Source: Modestobacter roseus (GTDB lineage: Bacteria; Actinomycetota; Actinomycetes; Mycobacteriales; Geodermatophilaceae). From it: a stretch of DNA of 64,000 bases. A program made the position numbers and the translations under genes. The stretch's first letter is position 1, and each line of letters starts with the position of its first letter. The notes beneath the pieces are model-generated. The model ran no database searches. It was not told where the DNA came from and saw only the letters and a program-made list of their open reading frames with translations. The stretch is from contig NZ_VLKF01000001.1 of assembly GCF_007994135.1 (NCBI RefSeq), positions 2,542,001 to 2,606,000 of the forward strand, given 5' to 3'. Shown here in pieces: positions 2,611 to 58,045 of this stretch.

Positions 2611-2680
2611 TGCTGGAACGGCCTCGCCGCAGGGCACCGCCCCGAGCGGAGCGAGGGGTGGGAGGCGGCGAGGTCCTTCT
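2611..2680 (-). repeat. Post-stop hairpin element, copy A
   Basis: On the minus strand the stop codon of the upstream gene is followed by AGAAGGACC and a nested hairpin, ending in GGCCGTTCCAGCA. The outer arms are CCTCGCCGC and GCGGCGAGG. The same layout occurs at 7742-7811, 35929-35998 and 57449-57518. It has no strong U-tract, so it is either a non-canonical terminator or a 3'-UTR structure. It lies between the coiled-coil gene and smc. Confidence 0.75.
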
Positions 2681-2872
2681 TCAGGCCAGGGCGGGGGCGG
2701 CCGACTCGTCGGCCAGGGTGAGCAGCTCGCGGGCGATCACGTTGTCGCGCTCCTCGCGGAGGACGGCGAGCTCCTCCTCCAGGCGGCGTACCCGCGCCCG
2801 CAGCGCGGCGTTCTCCTGGGCCATCCGGAGCTCGTGCGGAGCGACGACGGAACCGAACAGGGCCTTGGCCAT
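2681..2872 (-). CDS. Small coiled-coil protein, 63 aa, unknown function
   Basis: The protein begins MAKALFGSVV and then forms one uninterrupted Glu/Arg/Leu heptad-rich helix (about residues 14-50) with a short Ala-rich tail. There is no signal peptide or membrane segment. I chose the internal ATG because the MAKAL start is followed at once by conserved-looking sequence, while the upstream extension is not. It is transcribed in the same direction as smc, with hairpin element copy A between them. I recognise the type (short coiled-coil proteins of Actinobacteria) but no defined function. Reality of the gene is likely; role is unknown. Confidence 0.7.
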   Translation of the reverse strand: MAKALFGSVVAPHELRMAQENAALRARVRRLEEELAVLREERDNVIARELLTLADESAAPALA

Positions 2873-6705: not shown

Positions 6706-7187
6706 GCGGATGCCTCCCCTGCCCGGGCCACCAGCCGGTCGTTGACGGCCTTGGGGACCAGTGACGAGACGTCGCCGCCGAACCTGGCGATCTGCTTTAC
6801 CAGGCTGGAGGACAGGTGGCCGACCTGGGGTGCGGTGGGCACGAACAGCGTCTCGACGCCGGCCAGTTCGCGGTTCATCTGCGCCATCTGCAGCTCGTAC
6901 TCGAAGTCGCCGACGGCACGCAGCCCCTTGACCACCACCGGCAGGTCGTTCGCCGTGCAGTAGTCGACCAGCAGGCCGGAGAAGCTGTCGACGACGACGT
7001 TCGGCAGGTCGACGACGGCTTCACGCAGCAGCGCCATCCGCTCGTCGACGTCGAACAGGCCTGCCTTGCCCGGGTTCACCAGCACCGCGACGACCAGCTC
7101 GTCGTACAGCGCGGCGGCGCGGCGGATGACGTCGACGTGGCCGTTGGTGACCGGGTCGAACGAGCCGGGGCAGACCGCGCGCCTCAC
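6702..7187 (-). CDS. coaD: Phosphopantetheine adenylyltransferase
   Basis: Fourth step of coenzyme A synthesis: transfers AMP from ATP to 4'-phosphopantetheine. The 161-aa length is normal. The nucleotidyltransferase motif GSFDPVTNGH is at residues 8-17 (T-x-G-H), and the second motif appears as GHLSSSLVK near the C-terminus. The GTG start overlaps the rsmD stop codon (GTGA). rsmD-coaD pairing is widely conserved. Upstream codons up to 7259 are read-through from the rsmD region and not part of the protein. Confidence 0.96.
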   Translation of the reverse strand: MRRAVCPGSFDPVTNGHVDVIRRAAALYDELVVAVLVNPGKAGLFDVDERMALLREAVVDLPNVVVDSFSGLLVDYCTANDLPVVVKGLRAVGDFEYELQMAQMNRELAGVETLFVPTAPQVGHLSSSLVKQIARFGGDVSSLVPKAVNDRLVARAGEASA

Positions 7188-7738
7188 AACGAGCGACCGT
7201 ACCGGAGCACGGCCTCGCCGTAGCGCCGATCGCGCAGCCCGGTGATCGGTGTCGGCCACTCGAACGGCGCGTCCCGGCTGGCGCGCTCGACCACGACGAC
7301 CGCCTCCGGGGCCAGCCAGCCGCCGTCGGCCAGGGCACGCAGCACGCCGAGCACCTCGGCGTCGTCGATGGCGTAGGGCGGGTCGGCGAGCACCAGGTCG
7401 AACGCGGCCGGGGCCGGCCCGGCGACCACGGCGGTCACCTGCCCCTGGACGACGCGCGCGCCGGGCAGGCCCACGGCCTCGACGTTGGCGCGGAGCACCG
7501 GCAGCACCCCGGCCCCGGACTCCACGAACACCGCCTCCGCCGCCCCGCGGCTCAGCGCCTCCAGGCCCAGCGCGCCGGTGCCGGCGTACAGGTCGAGCAC
7601 CCGGGCGCCGTCCAGGTCGAGCAGCGAGTTCAGGGAGTTGAACAGCCCCTCGCGGGCACGGTCGCCGGTGGGCCGCACCCCGGCCCGCGGCACCTTCAGC
7701 CGCCGCCCGCCCGCGGTTCCCGCGATGATCCGCGTCAT
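7184..7738 (-). CDS. rsmD: 16S rRNA (guanine(966)-N(2))-methyltransferase
   Basis: Methylates G966 of 16S rRNA using S-adenosylmethionine. It begins MTRIIAGTAGGRRL, the usual RsmD start. The SAM-binding motif is DLYAGTGALG at residues 49-58 and the catalytic motif DPPY is at 119-122. Length 184 aa is typical. It overlaps coaD by 4 nt. Upstream lies hairpin element copy D, which separates it from recG. Confidence 0.95.
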   Translation of the reverse strand: MTRIIAGTAGGRRLKVPRAGVRPTGDRAREGLFNSLNSLLDLDGARVLDLYAGTGALGLEALSRGAAEAVFVESGAGVLPVLRANVEAVGLPGARVVQGQVTAVVAGPAPAAFDLVLADPPYAIDDAEVLGVLRALADGGWLAPEAVVVVERASRDAPFEWPTPITGLRDRRYGEAVLRYGRSL

Positions 7739-7741
7739 AGG

Positions 7742-7811
7742 TGTCCCCCCACCCCTGGCCCGGTCCAGAGGCTCACCCCGAGCTCGCGAGGGGTGAGGGG
7801 GACCGGGTCCT
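7742..7811 (-). repeat. Post-stop hairpin element, copy D (divergent)
   Basis: It starts on the minus strand immediately after the recG stop codon with AGGACCCGGTCC. The outer arms are CCCGGTCC and GGACCGGG. The inner arms are CTCACCCC and GGGGTGAG around a TCGCGAGCTC loop. It keeps the architecture of copies A-C but lacks their GGCCGTTCC tail. It is likely the recG 3' end or terminator. Confidence 0.65.
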
Positions 7812-10004
7812 TCAAGCCTTCTCCAGGTAGTCGGCGCGGTCGTCCAGCGCCAGGGCGGCGACCGCCGCGGCGAGCTCCGGGTGGTCGGCGAGCCCGCGGC
7901 CCTCCTCGACCAGCCGGGTGGCCTCCACCCGCGCCTCGGCGATCAGGTGCTCGTCGTCGAGCAGCGACAGCAGCCGCACCCCCGACCGCCGCCCGGACTG
8001 CGCAGCGCCGAGCACGTCGCCCTCCCGGCGGGTCTCCAGGTCCAGCCGGGCCAGCTCGAAGCCGTCGGTCGTGGCGGCGACCGCGGCGAGCCGCTGGCCG
8101 GTGGCCGAGGTGGCGGGCGCCTCGCTGACCAGCAGGCACAGCCCGGGGTGCTTGCCGCGCGCCACCCGGCCGCGCAGCTGGTGCAGCTGGCTGACGCCGA
8201 ACCGGTCGGCGTCCATCACCACCATCACCGTGGCGTTGGGCACGTCGACGCCGACCTCGACGACGGTGGTGGCGACCAGCACGTCGACCTCGGCGGCCGC
8301 GAAGGCCCGCATCCGGGCCTCCTTGTCCTCCGGGGTCATCCGGCCGTGCAGCACCTCGACCCGCAGCTGCGCCAGTGGCCCGGCGCGCAGCTCCTCGGCG
8401 ACGTCGAGCACCGCCAGCGGTGGTCGACGGTCGCTGCCGCCCTTCTCGTCCTCGGGCGGGGCGCCGTCCTCGCCGCCGGGGCCGTCGTCCTTCTCACCGG
8501 GGAGGTCACCGATGCGCGGGCAGACGACGTAGGCCTGCCGCCCGGCGGCGACCTCCTCGCGCACCCGCTCCCAGGCGCGGTCGAGCCAGCTCGGCTTCTC
8601 CCGGACCGGCACCAGCGAGCTGGACACCCCGCCGCGGCCGGCGGGCAGCTGGCGCAGCGTGGAGGTCTCCAGGTCGCCGTAGACGGTCATCGCCACGGTG
8701 CGCGGGATCGGGGTGGCGGTCATCACCAGCACGTGCGGCGGGCGGTTGCCCTTGGCCCGCAGCGCATCGCGCTGCTCGACGCCGAACCGGTGCTGCTCGT
8801 CGACGACGACGAGCCCCAGGTCGGCGAACTCCACCCCCTCCTGCAGCAAGGCGTGCGTGCCCACCACGATGCCGGCGCTTCCGTCGGCGACCGCGGCCCG
8901 CGCCTCGCGCCGGACCGCGGCCTTCTGCGAGCCGGTGAGCAGCACGACCCGGGTGCCGGCCGGGTCGCCGTCCAGCTCGCCGGCCCGACCGAGCGGACCG
9001 AGGACGGCGGCGAGGCTGCGGGCGTGCTGGGCGGCGAGCACCTCGGTGGGCGCCAGCAGCGCGGCCTGCCCCCCGGCGTCGACGACCTGGGCCATCGCCC
9101 GCAGCGCGACGACGGTCTTGCCCGAGCCGACCTCGCCCTGCAGCAGCCGGTTCATCGGCTGCTCGCGAGCGAGCTCCGCGGCGAGCTCCTCCCCCACCTC
9201 GCGCTGCCCGTCGGTGAGCGCGAACGGCAGCGCGGCGTCGACGGCGTCGAGCAGGCCACCGGCGCGGCGGGGGCGGGCGATCCCGGGCTCGAGCGCGGCG
9301 GCGCGGCGGCGGCCGGCCAGGGTGGCCTGCAGCACCAGCGCCTCGTCCCACTTGAGCCGCTCGTCGGCGGAGTCGACCTGCTCCTGGGACTCCGGGCGGT
9401 GCTTCCAGCGCAGCGCGGTGGCCAGCGGCACCAGCCCGTGCCGCTCGCGGACCGGCGCGGGCAGCGGGTCGTCGAGCGCCTGCTGCAGGGAGCGCTCGTC
9501 GTCCAGCAGCAGCTTCACCGACTTCTGGATCACCCAGCTGGAGACGTCCTTGCTGGCCGGGTAGATCGGCACCAGCGCCCGGGCCCAGTCGTCGTCGTCC
9601 CCGGTGATCACGTGGCAGTCGGGGTGGGTGAACTGCAGGTCGCCCTGCCACTTCCCGACGCTGCCGGCGAACAGCCCCCAGGCGCCGACCTCGAGGTGGG
9701 CGTGCCGGTGGTTGAAGAAGACCAGCCGCATGCTGCCCGCGCCGTCGCCGACGGTGACCTCGGTGATCGTGCCGCGGCGCTGGCGCATCGGCCGGCTGCT
9801 GACCTTCTTCACCTGGGCGAGCACGGTGACCCGGTCGCCGACCTGGAGGTCCTCCAACCGGCTCATCTCGCCGCGGCGCGCGTACCGGCGCGGGTAGTGC
9901 CGCAGCAGGTCGCGGACGGTGTGCAGCGAGAGCTGGTCGGCCATCGCCTTCGCCGTCTTCGGCCCCACCACCTTGCCCAGCGGGGTGTCCATCGCCAGCG
10001 CCAC
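7812..10004 (-). CDS. recG: ATP-dependent DNA helicase RecG
   Basis: Branch-migration helicase that reverses stalled replication forks. The 730-aa protein has the N-terminal wedge/OB domain (about 1-150), Walker A GEVGSGKT at 290-297, the Walker B box DEQH at 402-405, TATPIPRT, and a C-terminal motif VI region QLRGRVARG. The middle has a short Glu/Asp/Gly-rich insertion (after CPRIGDLPGE). The GTG start gives VALAMDTPLG; the ATG four codons on is an alternative. Its upstream 21 bp are a near-perfect tandem copy of the end of the preceding gene. Confidence 0.95.
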   Translation of the reverse strand: MALAMDTPLGKVVGPKTAKAMADQLSLHTVRDLLRHYPRRYARRGEMSRLEDLQVGDRVTVLAQVKKVSSRPMRQRRGTITEVTVGDGAGSMRLVFFNHRHAHLEVGAWGLFAGSVGKWQGDLQFTHPDCHVITGDDDDWARALVPIYPASKDVSSWVIQKSVKLLLDDERSLQQALDDPLPAPVRERHGLVPLATALRWKHRPESQEQVDSADERLKWDEALVLQATLAGRRRAAALEPGIARPRRAGGLLDAVDAALPFALTDGQREVGEELAAELAREQPMNRLLQGEVGSGKTVVALRAMAQVVDAGGQAALLAPTEVLAAQHARSLAAVLGPLGRAGELDGDPAGTRVVLLTGSQKAAVRREARAAVADGSAGIVVGTHALLQEGVEFADLGLVVVDEQHRFGVEQRDALRAKGNRPPHVLVMTATPIPRTVAMTVYGDLETSTLRQLPAGRGGVSSSLVPVREKPSWLDRAWERVREEVAAGRQAYVVCPRIGDLPGEKDDGPGGEDGAPPEDEKGGSDRRPPLAVLDVAEELRAGPLAQLRVEVLHGRMTPEDKEARMRAFAAAEVDVLVATTVVEVGVDVPNATVMVVMDADRFGVSQLHQLRGRVARGKHPGLCLLVSEAPATSATGQRLAAVAATTDGFELARLDLETRREGDVLGAAQSGRRSGVRLLSLLDDEHLIAEARVEATRLVEEGRGLADHPELAAAVAALALDDRADYLEKA

Positions 10005-12128: not shown

Positions 12129-12755
12129 TCAGCGGCCGATGCCCCGCGCCCGCGCGGCGGTGACGACCAGCTCGACGACGGTGTCGTGCGGCAGCTCGGT
12201 GCTGTCCACCACCAGGTGGTAGTGCCGCGCCTCGGCCGGGTCGCACCGGTAGAAGTGCCGCACGTAGGCGGTCCGGGCGGCGTCGGCGGCGTCCCGCTCC
12301 CGGCGCACGTCGTCCTCCGGCCCGCCCCGGTGGGCCAGCGCGGCGGCCAGCCGCCGGTCGGGGTGCCCGTCCAGCCGCACGTGCAGCACGTCGGGGCGGT
12401 CGCGCAGCACCATCGCCGCCGCCCGGCCGAGCACCACACCCCCGGCGCCCTCGGCGATCTCGGCCAGCACCCGCTCGGTCTGCACCCGGTAGGCGCGCTC
12501 GTCGGGCAGCGTCGAGGTGGGCAGCACCCCGCCGACCGGGTCGGGCATGGTGCCCAGCGAGGTGACCAGCCGCCACAGGCCCCGGGTGATCGTCTCGTCG
12601 TTGGCCTCCGCCTCGGCGACGGGGACGCCGAGGCGGCCGGCGACCTGGGCCGGGATCACCCGGTCGTGGAACGGCAGCCCGAGCCGCTCGGCGACGGCGG
12701 GGGCGATCTCCGCCCCGCCCGCACCGAACGACGCCGACACCGTCACGACGCCCAT
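12129..12755 (-). CDS. Cytidylate kinase-like family protein
   Basis: The 208-aa protein has the P-loop NTPase start of the cytidylate-kinase-like family (VVTVSASFGAGGAEIAPAVAE), where the Walker A is degenerate compared with the GPSGAGKST of true Cmk. It also has the FHDR segment and an Arg-rich lid. The family is common in Actinobacteria and its substrate is unknown. The ATG lies inside the 3' end of the GNAT gene (13-bp overlap), so it is the third gene of a thiL-GNAT-kinase series. It ends before the rpmB terminator. Confidence 0.8.
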   Translation of the reverse strand: MGVVTVSASFGAGGAEIAPAVAERLGLPFHDRVIPAQVAGRLGVPVAEAEANDETITRGLWRLVTSLGTMPDPVGGVLPTSTLPDERAYRVQTERVLAEIAEGAGGVVLGRAAAMVLRDRPDVLHVRLDGHPDRRLAAALAHRGGPEDDVRRERDAADAARTAYVRHFYRCDPAEARHYHLVVDSTELPHDTVVELVVTAARARGIGR

Positions 12756-32888: not shown

Positions 32889-34964
32889 GTGCCTGCCGCC
32901 GACCCGACGCTCCCCGCCGACCGGTTCCTCAACCGTGAGCTCTCCTGGCTGGACTTCAACGCCCGGGTGCTCGAGCTGGCCGAGGACGACAGCCTGCCGT
33001 TGCTGGAGCGGGTGAAGTTCCTCTCGATCTTCGCCAGCAACCTCGACGAGTTCTTCATGGTCCGGATCGCCGGCCTCAAGCGCCGGCAGAGCACCGGCCT
33101 CACCGTCCGCTCCCCCGACGGGCTGACCATCCGCGAGCAGCTCGCCCTGGTCACCGAGCGCACCCAGGACCTGATGCACCGGCACGGCGGCGTCTTCACC
33201 AAGGACGTCACGCCGCTGCTGGAGGCGCAGGGCATCCGGATCCTGCACTGGAGCGACCTCGCCGACACCGATGCGATGCGCCTGCGCGAGTACTTCCGCG
33301 ACCAGGTGTTCCCGGTGCTCACCCCGCTGGCGGTCGACCCGGCGCACCCCTTCCCCTACATCAGCGGGCTGTCGCTGAACCTGGCGGTCTCCGTCCGCGA
33401 CCCGGACACCGGCGCCCCCCGCTTCGCGCGGGTCAAGGTGCCCAACAACGTGCCGCGGTTCATCCCGGTGTCCCCGGCCGGGGGGCAGCACAGCGACGCG
33501 ACGGCGGTCTTCCTCCCGCTCGAGGACCTGATCGCCGCGCACCTCGGCCAGCTGTTCCCCGGCCTGGACGTGCTCGACCACCACCTGTTCCGGGTCACCC
33601 GCAACGCCGACCTCGAGGTCGAGGAGGACCGGGACGAGGACCTGCTGCAGGCCCTGGAGCGCGAGCTCGCCCGGCGCCGGTTCGGGCCGGCGGTGCGCCT
33701 GGAGATCACCGCGTCGATGGACCCGCAGATCCTCGACGTGCTCGTCTCCGAGCTGGAGATCAGCCCGTCCGACGTCGTCTCGGTGCCCGGGCTGCTGGAC
33801 CTGGCCTCGCTGATGGAGCTCTACGACCTGGACCGGCCCGAGCTCAAGGACGACCCGTTCGTGCCGGCCACCCACCCCCGGCTCTCCGAGGGCGAGACCC
33901 CCAAGAGCGTGTTCGCGACGCTGCGCGAGGGCGACGTGCTGGTGCACCACCCCTACGACTCCTTCGCCACCAGCGTGCAGCGGTTCATCGAGCAGGCCGC
34001 CGCCGACCCGCACGTGCTGGCGATCAAGCAGACGCTCTACCGCACCTCGGGTGACTCCCCCATCGTCTCGGCGCTGATCGAGGCGGCGCAGGCCGGCAAG
34101 CAGGTCGTCGTCCTGGTGGAGATCAAGGCCCGCTTCGACGAGGAGGCGAACATCAGCTGGGCCCGTTCGCTGGAGCGGGCCGGCTGCCACGTCGTCTACG
34201 GGCTGGTGGGGCTCAAGACGCACTGCAAGACGGCGCTGGTGGTCCGGATGGAGAACGGGGTGATCCGCCGGTACTGCCACATCGGCACCGGCAACTACAA
34301 CCCGAAGACCGCCCGGATCTACGAGGACCTGGGCATCCTCACCGCCGACCCCCGGGTGGGCGCCGACCTCACCGACCTGTTCAACACCCTCACCGGTTAC
34401 TCCCGGCAGACCACCTACCGGTCACTGCTGGTGGCGCCCCGCGGGGTGCGCACCGGGCTGGTGGAGCGGATCCGCCGCGAGGCCCGGCACGCCGCCGAGG
34501 GGCGCGCGTCGGGCATCCGGATCAAGGTGAACTCCCTGGTCGACGAGCAGATCATCGACGCGCTCTACGAGGCGTCCCTGGCCGGCGTGCCGGTCGAGCT
34601 GCTGATCCGCGGCATCTGCGCGCTGCGCCCGGGGGTGCCGGGGCTGAGCGAGAACATCCGGGTGCGCTCGATCGTGGGCCGCTTCCTGGAGCACTCGCGG
34701 GCGATCAGCTTCGTCAACGACGGCGAGCCCGAGTGGTGGATCGGCAGCGCCGACCTCATGCACCGCAACCTCGACCGCCGGGTGGAGGTGCTGTTGCGGG
34801 TGAACGACCCGGCCGCCCAGCGCCAGCTGCAGCAGGTCTTCGACGGCGCGCTCGCGCCCGACGTGCTCAGCTGGGAGCTGTCCGCCGACGGGAGCTGGCG
34901 CCGCTGCGGGCAGCGCGACCACCAGCGGGAGCTGCTCACCGGGCGGGGTGAGCACGCTGCCTGA
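32889..34964 (+). CDS. ppk1: Polyphosphate kinase 1
   Basis: Membrane-associated enzyme that polymerises the ATP gamma-phosphate into polyphosphate. The 691-aa protein has the N-domain ([31 protein letters not shown]), the head domain, and the two PLD-like catalytic domains. The phospho-acceptor His is residue 464 in [13 protein letters not shown], and a second conserved His lies in [17 protein letters not shown] lies 7 nt before this GTG. A GTG at 32871 overlapping the cofC stop is an alternative. The 3' end overlaps the Nudix gene by 17 bp. Confidence 0.96.
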
Positions 34965-35928
34965 GCCCGCCCCGCTGATCCCGGCGGCCGGCGGTGCGCT
35001 GTGGCGCCGCCGCCCCGACGGCACGCTCGAGACCGCACTGGTGCACCGGCCCAAGTACGACGACTGGTCGCTGCCCAAGGGCAAGCTCGACCCCGGGGAG
35101 CACCCGCTGCTGGCCGCCGTGCGGGAGGTCGACGAGGAGACCGGCCTGCGCACCGTCGTCGGCCGGCGCAGCGTGCAGACCCGCTACGAGCACCGGCAGG
35201 GCCCCAAGCGGGTCGACTACTGGGTGATGCGCGCCGCCGGCGGTGACTTCGTGCCCAACGACGAGGTCGACGAGCTGCGCTGGCTGTCCCTGCCCGACGC
35301 CGACCGGGTGGTCAGCCACGACCACGACCGCGCGGTGCTGCACGACCTGGCCCGCACCGACGTGCCGCGGATGCCGCAGCTGCTGCTGGTCCGGCACGCG
35401 TCGGCCGGTGAGCGCGGCGACTGGGACGGCCCGGACGACGAGCGCCCGCTGGACCGCCGGGGCCGCGGGCAGGCGGCCGCGCTGGCCGCGGTGCTGCCCG
35501 CCTTCGGCCCCGTCCGGGTGCTCGCCGCGCCACCGGTGCGCTGCCGGGAGACGGTGACGCCGCTCGCGGAGGAGCTGGGCCTGCCGGTGGGCGAGGTGCC
35601 CGAGCTCGGCGAGGACGGCTTCGAGGCCGACCCCGAGGCGGGGCTGGCCGTCGTCGAACGGCTGCTGACCACCGACGCGCCGGACGACGGCGTGACCGTG
35701 GTGTGCAGCCAGGGCGGGGCGATCCCCTCGGTGCTGCTCTCCCTCGGGGTGCGCTGGCACGGCACCGCCGGGGCGCTGTGGCCGCCGGCGGCCAAGGGCA
35801 GCGTGTGGGCGCTCAGCGGCCGGCCGGGCGCGCTGGCCGCGGACTACTACCGCGACTTCACCGCCGACCCGGCGGCGCCGTCGGGCCGGGCGACCGGCAC
35901 CGCCGGCCGGGTCGCCGCCACCAGCTGA
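34948..35928 (+). CDS. mutT1: MutT1-like Nudix hydrolase / histidine phosphatase fusion
   Basis: Two domains in 326 aa. The Nudix domain (1-135) has the complete box [23 protein letters not shown]. The histidine-phosphatase domain (about 145-320) has [10 protein letters not shown] with the catalytic His. This matches mycobacterial MutT1, which degrades 8-oxo-GTP/dGTP and dinucleoside polyphosphates. It overlaps ppk1, which suggests linked control of nucleotide hygiene and polyphosphate. It ends directly at hairpin element copy B. Confidence 0.92.
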
Positions 35929-35998
35929 GGAAGGACCCCGCTGCCCCCCACCGCTCGCACGCTCGCGGTGGGCCCCTGCAGCGGGGCCGTTCCAGCAG
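35929..35998 (+). repeat. Post-stop hairpin element, copy B
   Basis: The mutT1 TGA is followed by GGAAGGACCCCGCTGCC. The outer arms are CCCCGCTGC and GCAGCGGGG. The inner arms are CCCACCGC and GCGGTGGG around a TCGCACGCTC loop. The tail is GGCCGTTCCAGCA. It sits between convergent mutT1 and leuD and may terminate both. Confidence 0.8.
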
Positions 35999-36004
35999 CT
36001 GGCG

Positions 36005-36610
36005 TCAGGCGGGCAGGGCGGGGAGCGCCTTCGGCTTCCAGGACGGGCGCTGCGCCTCGAACGCCGCGACGTCGTCCAGGTGGCGCTCGGTGAGCCCGAC
36101 GTCGTCCAGCCCCTCCAGCAGCCGCCAGCGGGTGTAGTCGTCGATCTCGAACGGCACCGTGACGTCGGCGTAGGTGACCTGCTTGGCCCGCAGGTCGACC
36201 GTCACCGCCGTCGCCGGGTCGGCCTCGATCGCGGCCCACAGCGCCTCGACCTCCGGCTGCGCCATCAGCACGGTGAGCAGCCCGGACTTGGTCGAGTTGT
36301 TCTTGAAGATGTCGGCGAACCGGGAGCTGATCACGACCCGGAACCCGCCGTCGAGCAGCGCCCAGACGGCGTGCTCCCGGGAGGAGCCGGTGCCGAAGTC
36401 GGGGCCGGCGACCAGCACCGAGGCGTCGGCGTACTCCGGCTGGTTGAGCACGAAGTCCGGCTCGTTGGTGCGCCAGGCGACGAACAGCCCGTCCTCGAAG
36501 CCGGTGCGGGTGATCCGCTTGAGGTACTCCGCCGGGATGATCTGGTCGGTGTCGACGTTGCTGCGCCGCAGCGGGGCGGCGCTGCCGGTGTGCGTGGTGA
36601 AGGCGTCCAT
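36005..36610 (-). CDS. leuD: 3-isopropylmalate dehydratase small subunit
   Basis: Partner of LeuC in the isomerisation of isopropylmalate (leucine synthesis). The 201-aa protein has the swivel-domain motifs [34 protein letters not shown] and [18 protein letters not shown]. Length is normal. It lies 19 bp downstream of leuC. Confidence 0.96.
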
Positions 36611-42507: not shown

Positions 42508-42580
42508 TAGCCCCGAAGGGATTCGAACCCTCGCTACCGCCGTGAGAGGGCGGCGTCCTGGGCCGCTAGACGACGGGGCC
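42508..42580 (-). tRNA. tRNA-Glu (CTC), copy 1
   Basis: 73 nt without encoded CCA. Acceptor GGCCCCG pairs with CGGGGCT (a G-U at the first pair), discriminator A. The anticodon loop CTCTCAC reads CTC. T-arm GGTTCGAATCC. Same sequence as copy 2. Confidence 0.95.
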
Positions 42581-42652
42581 GTGCGCGCAGAGATGGTGCC
42601 ACACCGGCCCGGCCGGATCGACACCCGGGGGTGGGTGGGCTCCGGAGACGAC

Positions 42653-42686
42653 GAGAGCCCCCGACCCGGGTGGGTCGGGGGCTCTC
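42653..42686 (-). terminator. Terminator after tRNA-Glu copy 2
   Basis: Identical to the hairpin at 42469-42502, again 5 nt after the tRNA 3' end. The repeat period is 184 bp. Confidence 0.8.
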
Positions 42687-42691
42687 CGCTG

Positions 42692-42764
42692 TAGCCCCGA
42701 AGGGATTCGAACCCTCGCTACCGCCGTGAGAGGGCGGCGTCCTGGGCCGCTAGACGACGGGGCC
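42692..42764 (-). tRNA. tRNA-Glu (CTC), copy 2
   Basis: Identical 73-nt tRNA-Glu, 184 bp from copy 1, part of a tandem duplication of tRNA plus terminator. The gltX gene lies about 1.6 kb away. Confidence 0.95.
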
Positions 42765-42807
42765 AGGCGTACTGCTCGGTGGTGCTGGAGGAGATGGTGC
42801 TTCCTCG

Positions 42808-42879
42808 CTGGGGTACCAGGACTCGAACCTAGACTAACGGAACCAGAAACCGTCGGGCTGCCAATTACCCCATACCCCA
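42808..42879 (-). tRNA. tRNA-Gln (CTG)
   Basis: 72 nt. Acceptor TGGGGTA pairs with TACCCCA, discriminator G. The anticodon loop TTCTGGT reads CTG. T-arm GGTTCGAGTCC. It is first in the tRNA series and close to gltX; in many Actinobacteria GluRS also charges tRNA-Gln, with later amidation. Confidence 0.95.

Positions 42880-56392: not shown

Positions 56393-58045
<1,653 letters not shown>

Follow-up and report, generated by a model that had tools for sequence, protein, structure and literature searches.

The 64-kb window, by which we mean the whole stretch of Modestobacter DNA analyzed here, carries four copies of a short hairpin element directly behind the stop codons of unrelated genes (Table 1). 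All four were recovered where they had been predicted, with borders set by a covariance model (R1), and each begins, as claimed, 0–4 nt past a stop codon. In the copy between recG and rsmD, AGGACC follows directly after the recG TGA, and the copy lies within an open frame that opens at TTGA, on the recG stop, and closes on the ATGA of rsmD; the absence of GGCCGTTCC from it was likewise borne out. The inner stem has one A.C pair on the gene strand in most copies and an A-U pair in copy 3, and three of the four fold-energy z values are modest for GC-rich DNA. At gathering score, the sole Rfam matches of the window are three tRNA genes in a row (42508-42879, minus strand) and no Rfam family was found for the element; a literature search covering titles and abstract openings gave no account of this repeat.

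Table 1. Element copies, their neighbouring genes and the parts of copy 3 in the 64-kb window (bits, scores of model R1; z, fold-energy z value)
Feature	Position	Strand	Remarks
Element copy 1	2615-2679	-	79.1 bits; z -1.39; TGA + 1 nt of the 63-aa gene; upstream of smc
63-aa protein gene	2681-2872	-	without Pfam or NCBIfam match; coiled-coil by eye
rsmD	7184-7738	-	far neighbour of copy 2
Element copy 2	7757-7810	-	47.7 bits; z -0.42; between recG and rsmD
recG	7812-10004	-	upstream gene of copy 2
mutT1	34948-35928	+	best NCBIfam match, below the cut-off of that model
Element copy 3	35930-35993	+	90.7 bits; z -4.03; TGA + 1 nt of mutT1
Copy 3, outer stem 5' arm	35930-35944	+	GAAGG, bulged A, CC, variable arm; from structure and pair counts
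Copy 3, inner stem and TCGC..GCTCG loop	35947-35972	+	8 bp
Copy 3, outer stem 3' arm	35978-35992	+	variable arm, GGCC, bulged G, TTC; from structure and pair counts
leuD	36005-36610	-	convergent with mutT1 and copy 3
ilvC	56393-57418	-	far neighbour of copy 4
Element copy 4	57452-57516	-	68.1 bits; z -1.76; TAG + 2 nt of ilvN; upstream of ilvC
ilvN	57519-58025	-	upstream gene of copy 4

An exact end-to-end pattern of the element had 12 matches in the genome, against none for a backward control pattern, and R1, built from 12 copies, gave 90 matches at E ≤ 1 among the 150 candidates scored (best E 1.4e-16). About 88 distinct copies (92 matches less 4 antisense echoes) were counted in 1.25 Mb of sequence, which represents 28% of the genome and was picked to contain matches. 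The covariance-model search suggested along with the original prediction found further copies behind stop codons, with covariation among them, and the four hairpins of the window are more than chance, being members of a recurrent family.

The element is about 64 nt long and, where it has a 3' extension, reaches about 75 nt at most; AGCACGTCACC continues many of the top copies. Covariation was analyzed in 52 exact-end copies of 64 nt, selected for their ends and aligned without gaps. Pairing was found in 95.1% of 1144 cells, both sides had changed at 11 pairs, and double changes occupied 112 cells against 25.6 in shuffles, a value reached by none of 500 shuffles; the number of further pair types was less telling, as 51 of the 500 shuffles reached it. 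In the variable arms 354 of 364 cells pair, against at most 299 in 1000 shuffles, and sliding of the pairing partner abolished the covariation signal. The copies are related by descent and these counts are not independent events, but the claim that the outer arms differ and still pair in each copy stands on strong covariation. GG-A-CC and GG-CC-G-TTCC, with two bulged bases, are fixed in this end-selected set. In the copies of the own genome, the 5' GAA is kept in 66, 66 and 76 of 79, and GGCCGTTCC is intact in 17 of 80.

For placement, genes in the 1.25 Mb were called with our own codon model. Among the 83 copies scoring ≥ 33 bits, 63 begin within 8 nt past a sense stop, mostly after TGA plus 1 nt, and the other 20 lie farther behind a sense stop (7), have an opposite-strand upstream neighbour (8) or sit inside a called gene (5), three groups in which some cases may be gene-call faults. 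The orientation, said to be always that of the upstream gene, follows this gene as a rule and not absolutely: by our own gene calls, the 88 copies comprise 38 tandem, 33 convergent, 5 '<<', 4 divergent and 8 inside a called gene. A copy was present at 66 of the 1106 gene ends tested (32 convergent, 34 tandem), with a convergent share of 32/66 against 343/1040 among the other ends. The stop codons at these ends (59 TGA, 5 TAG, 2 TAA) match those of the other 1040 (944, 87 and 9). CTGA precedes 48 of the 59 TGA copies at gene ends in the own genome, but this preference (p = 0.005 against all other ends) was given up, as it vanished against ends with gaps over 60 (p = 0.41). TGA as the only target was rejected too, since non-stop TGAs are plentiful in 3' regions, yet the copies sit at stops: for 1008 TGA stops there are 2179 other TGAs in non-coding DNA, the 3' regions behind 579 element-free ends contain 491 sense TGAs that are not stops, compared to 522 TGA stops, and the copies ≥ 9 nt behind a sense stop have TGA at that place in only 2 of 7 cases. 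A TGA target alone is therefore insufficient for the adjacency to stops, and selection or a link to translation is missing from such an account. Some sequence preference of the target remains, as AGT takes the place of TGA in 9 of the 56 copies without a called stop (a set including a few double counts or missed stops) and in 5 of the 12 TAG copies, compared to ~0.5% per position in non-coding DNA; AGT-N also precedes nested reverse copies at two loci (L121 and L126).

The recG|rsmD junction was compared in 81 sequences (80 loci plus the window), of which 37 show a stop/start overlap, 16 are separated by a spacer of < 40 nt and 28 contain an insert of 62–215 nt. The element makes up 26 of the 28 inserts, 25 of them matched by R1 at E ≤ 1 (in L145 and L195 with no better than about 0.07) and one, in L190, decayed and recognized by eye; the other two, in L123 and L124, are a 71-nt in-frame insert at about 12199-12269 that is unrelated to the element. 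The frame opened at the recG stop ends exactly at the rsmD start in 27 of the 28 inserts and in 25 of the 26 element copies (the exception is L147, and in L120 the frame is intact but has no start codon), where one third would be expected if the frame were irrelevant, with the qualification that the sequences share ancestry. Since the two unrelated inserts and 13 of the 16 short spacers also keep the frame, the rule is one of the junction rather than of the element, and it would most simply be read as translational coupling. In the own genome, the 33 tandem copies listed include 4 such frame chains, the one at recG being among them.

By its RecG relatives the window belongs to a Modestobacter. 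R1 matches were found in 22 of 22 congeners, the 16 genomes from other families included in the same draw had none, and the wider search found them in 101 of 112 genomes of the family (own genome and congeners counted), which was coded in our data and which we infer to be Geodermatophilaceae. In the order, 53 of 298 genomes had matches, 50 of them within the family; the remaining 3 genomes hold 5 copies, three of which are no more than about 0.6 kb away from the end of a contig. One of the stretches concerned is 86% identical to own-genome DNA across 1 kb, and these copies may stem from transfer or contamination, which are indistinguishable here. Copy numbers per genome, often lower bounds, vary widely. 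The nine genomes of genus codes g22–g24 had no matches, and in a deeper search G039 had none, G067 only three (at E 0.2–0.5), and G055, G045 and G114 had 2, 4 and 5 sound matches, while their genus-code mates hold from 13 to at least 48 copies; within genus code g18 alone the range is from none to at least about 47.

Presence of the element at recG|rsmD, where it has 26 bearers, was followed on a RecG tree whose 80 rows are the window and 79 loci (the partial L196 being left out); it changes at least 20 times when two states are counted, and 21 times with three. Some of these changes are probably losses, as is suggested by the 3' sequence shared between L171 and L174, and among the matches listed some 'empty' sites resemble decayed copies, so that a large part of the 20 changes may be due to loss. 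Reverse-strand copies are nested inside forward copies in L120, L121, L126 and L129. At the end of a gene that we take from its C-terminus to be rpmB, copies of different arm types stand between the stop and a separate hairpin common to many species. Among the pairs listed from the comparison of filled and empty sites (909 candidate pairs), most of them too diverged to be read, there was no clear target-site duplication and no recent pair with near-identical flanks. The Y1 transposase domain PF01797 was found in none of the 112 family genomes, compared to 5 of 14 control genomes, and a RAYT-driven REP was rejected on this basis; a reverse transcriptase was rejected as mobiliser too, being present in 49 of the 112 genomes, untied to copy number and absent from copy-rich genomes, G015 and G004 for example. 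A single exact pattern, used to look for phage carriage, had no matches in viral contigs.

Of the three readings offered originally, a mobile palindrome at gene ends fits best, given the junction inserts, the nesting and the range of copy number within g18. We consider it probable that the element is a dispersed palindrome of the mobile type, similar to MIRUs and REPs, that spread through the Geodermatophilaceae and was retained mainly where it abuts stop codons. New copies would be inserted, presumably by active transposition and an enzyme behind it, after short motifs such as TGA-N or AGT-N, and would be kept mostly directly behind stop codons. At an ordinary gene end such a copy would form an untranslated hairpin; at recG|rsmD almost all copies can be read as a short open frame from the upstream stop (DTGA) to the downstream start (DTGA), so translational coupling could continue across it, and a ribosome translating this putative frame would melt the hairpin. 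In tight convergent gaps, some copies may since have been adopted as terminators. A benefit of the element to its host is putative.

A close counterpart in arrangement are the MIRUs (mycobacterial interspersed repetitive units), which are likewise short dispersed repeats of an actinobacterial lineage, apparently mobile, and placed so that an internal open frame is coupled to the following gene at -4 nt (PMC12548453). The element likewise occupies DTGA stop/start overlaps, as 26 of the 81 recG|rsmD sequences carry it where 37 keep the overlap, and its internal frame overlaps both neighbours by 4 nt in 25 of the 26 copies there. Unlike a MIRU, however, it is a covarying hairpin that occurs in another family and for the most part at gene ends, where it has no such frame. 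REP/REPIN elements, with their RAYT transposases, are comparable as palindromes dispersed outside genes in many copies and subfamilies; the element differs from them in the absence of the Y1 transposase from the family, in abutting stop codons and in its length of about 64 nt. For MIRUs we know of no mobiliser. Integron attC sites are also imperfect hairpins with bulged bases that adjoin a stop codon and favour the opposite strand, but the ends of the element do not fit the attC boxes, and its neighbours are housekeeping genes and not cassettes. The element is not classed as a MIRU, to which it is likened by arrangement and by its behaviour at a coupled junction, nor as a REP, as the transposase is absent, nor as a terminator, for which the tests were mixed.

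That last reading, a lineage-specific intrinsic terminator acting in both directions at the stop codon and silenced where it is translated, is rather unlikely as a general account, and a genus-specific version was dropped after the family-wide search and the recG junction. Intrinsic terminators lacking a U tract, TRITs among them, are known from actinobacteria (PMC3526491), and the element resembles the mycobacterial TRIT type in being a gene-end hairpin with no U tract that is frequent in convergent gaps. U tracts are indeed not required in this genome: the strong native hairpins at 77 tandem and 99 convergent element-free ends (tiles L060–L119) have a T fraction of 0.16–0.19 after the stem. 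The original remark that no good U-tract follows the element holds for the gene-strand tail, whose T fraction is 0.12 in the 8 positions counted from the last C's of the stem, but it is not distinctive. Besides the raised convergent share of element ends, native hairpins of ≤ -25 kcal/mol follow the element at 28% of 32 convergent ends, as if replaced by it, compared to 61% of 90 sampled control ends with gaps of 40–100 and 39% of 75 with longer gaps. At -18 kcal/mol, however, the convergent value (44%) equals that of the long-gap controls (43%), though it stays below the 71% for gaps of 40–100, and tandem ends show no replacement at this threshold (29% of 34 vs. 30% of 90 sampled ends). In convergent gaps the element may plausibly have replaced a terminator; in tandem gaps no such replacement was seen. 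The native strong stems are also of another kind, starting at a median of 13–17 nt after the stop and forming, in the examples shown, long near-perfect palindromes, so the element differs in shape and place, besides being an open frame inside an operon. Termination may account for copies in convergent gaps, but it leaves unexplained the frame-keeping copies in the coupled junction recG|rsmD and those upstream of a separate hairpin at rpmB, and a few species do nearly without the element.

The original prediction also held that the RNA structure is selected, a claim that the comparison of strands does not support as it stands. In 55 exact-end copies the imperfect pairs on the gene strand are 57 A.C against 4 G.U, 44 of the 57 at one inner pair, and the alignments of the own genome and of the family gave 126 vs. 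31 and 152 vs. 33; two inner pairs supply most of this excess, and without them the ratios fall to 47 to 27 and 57 to 32. As RNA, the opposite strand is the more stable of the two in 55/55, 84/92 and 100/103 copies (the set of 92 includes four antisense-echo rows), and with DNA parameters it is the more stable one in 54 of 55. As the gene strand is less stable and its imperfect pairs are mostly A.C and not G.U, selection may act on the opposite strand or on DNA; the asymmetry may come from single-stranded DNA, antisense RNA or the copying of one arm from the other. One reading built on this, which goes beyond the mobile palindrome favoured above and which we hold to be unlikely, is that of a single-stranded mobile hairpin that would act through the strand opposite the gene, with its insertion or retention tied to translation termination, so that it would recognise stops, or survive at them, whatever their sequence and serve as a translated bridge in coupled gene pairs.

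The same asymmetry would suit a terminator or roadblock against antisense transcription, in which the stable opposite-strand hairpin is followed by UCCUUC and antisense RNA ends at the stop codon, and the better conservation of the 5' GAA than of GGCCGTTCC and a tail T fraction of 0.33 on the opposite strand, compared to 0.12 on the gene strand, point the same way. We nevertheless find this quite improbable. About half of the copies next to stops (34 of 66) are flanked by genes in tandem, so that none faces them; most of the A.C excess comes from two inner pairs; and the same asymmetry would be expected of a hairpin of single-stranded DNA. REP elements near stop codons can act within the mRNA, and the gene-strand placement behind stop codons and the conserved bulges (in copies chosen for their ends) would agree with a 3'-end stabiliser, a processing site or a ribosome-stalling hairpin, but such a role is highly improbable for a gene-strand RNA that is the less stable strand, has few G.U pairs and is an open reading frame at recG|rsmD.

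The family provides a natural experiment, with the same hairpin untranslated behind stops and as an open frame in a coupled operon, in dozens of copies in most genomes. The influence of stop-codon hairpins on termination could be tested directly on it, and so could the way in which short repeats spread while leaving operons intact, a question common to MIRUs. It also advises caution: structure alone is not enough to annotate such hairpins as terminators.

Several local arrangements of the element were seen in passing. Five loci (L039, L044, L061, L202 and L203) have tandem repeats of the 3' half after a complete copy, which look as if they came from template slippage, and at G049:C24:140445-140640 three copies lie head-to-tail with a period of 66 nt. 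Two copies, L074:12053-12114 and L092:10399-10460, are found in paralogous stretches that are 87% identical over 1154 nt, the former being antisense inside a gene that presumably encodes a DUF222/HNH protein of the 13E12 repeat type.
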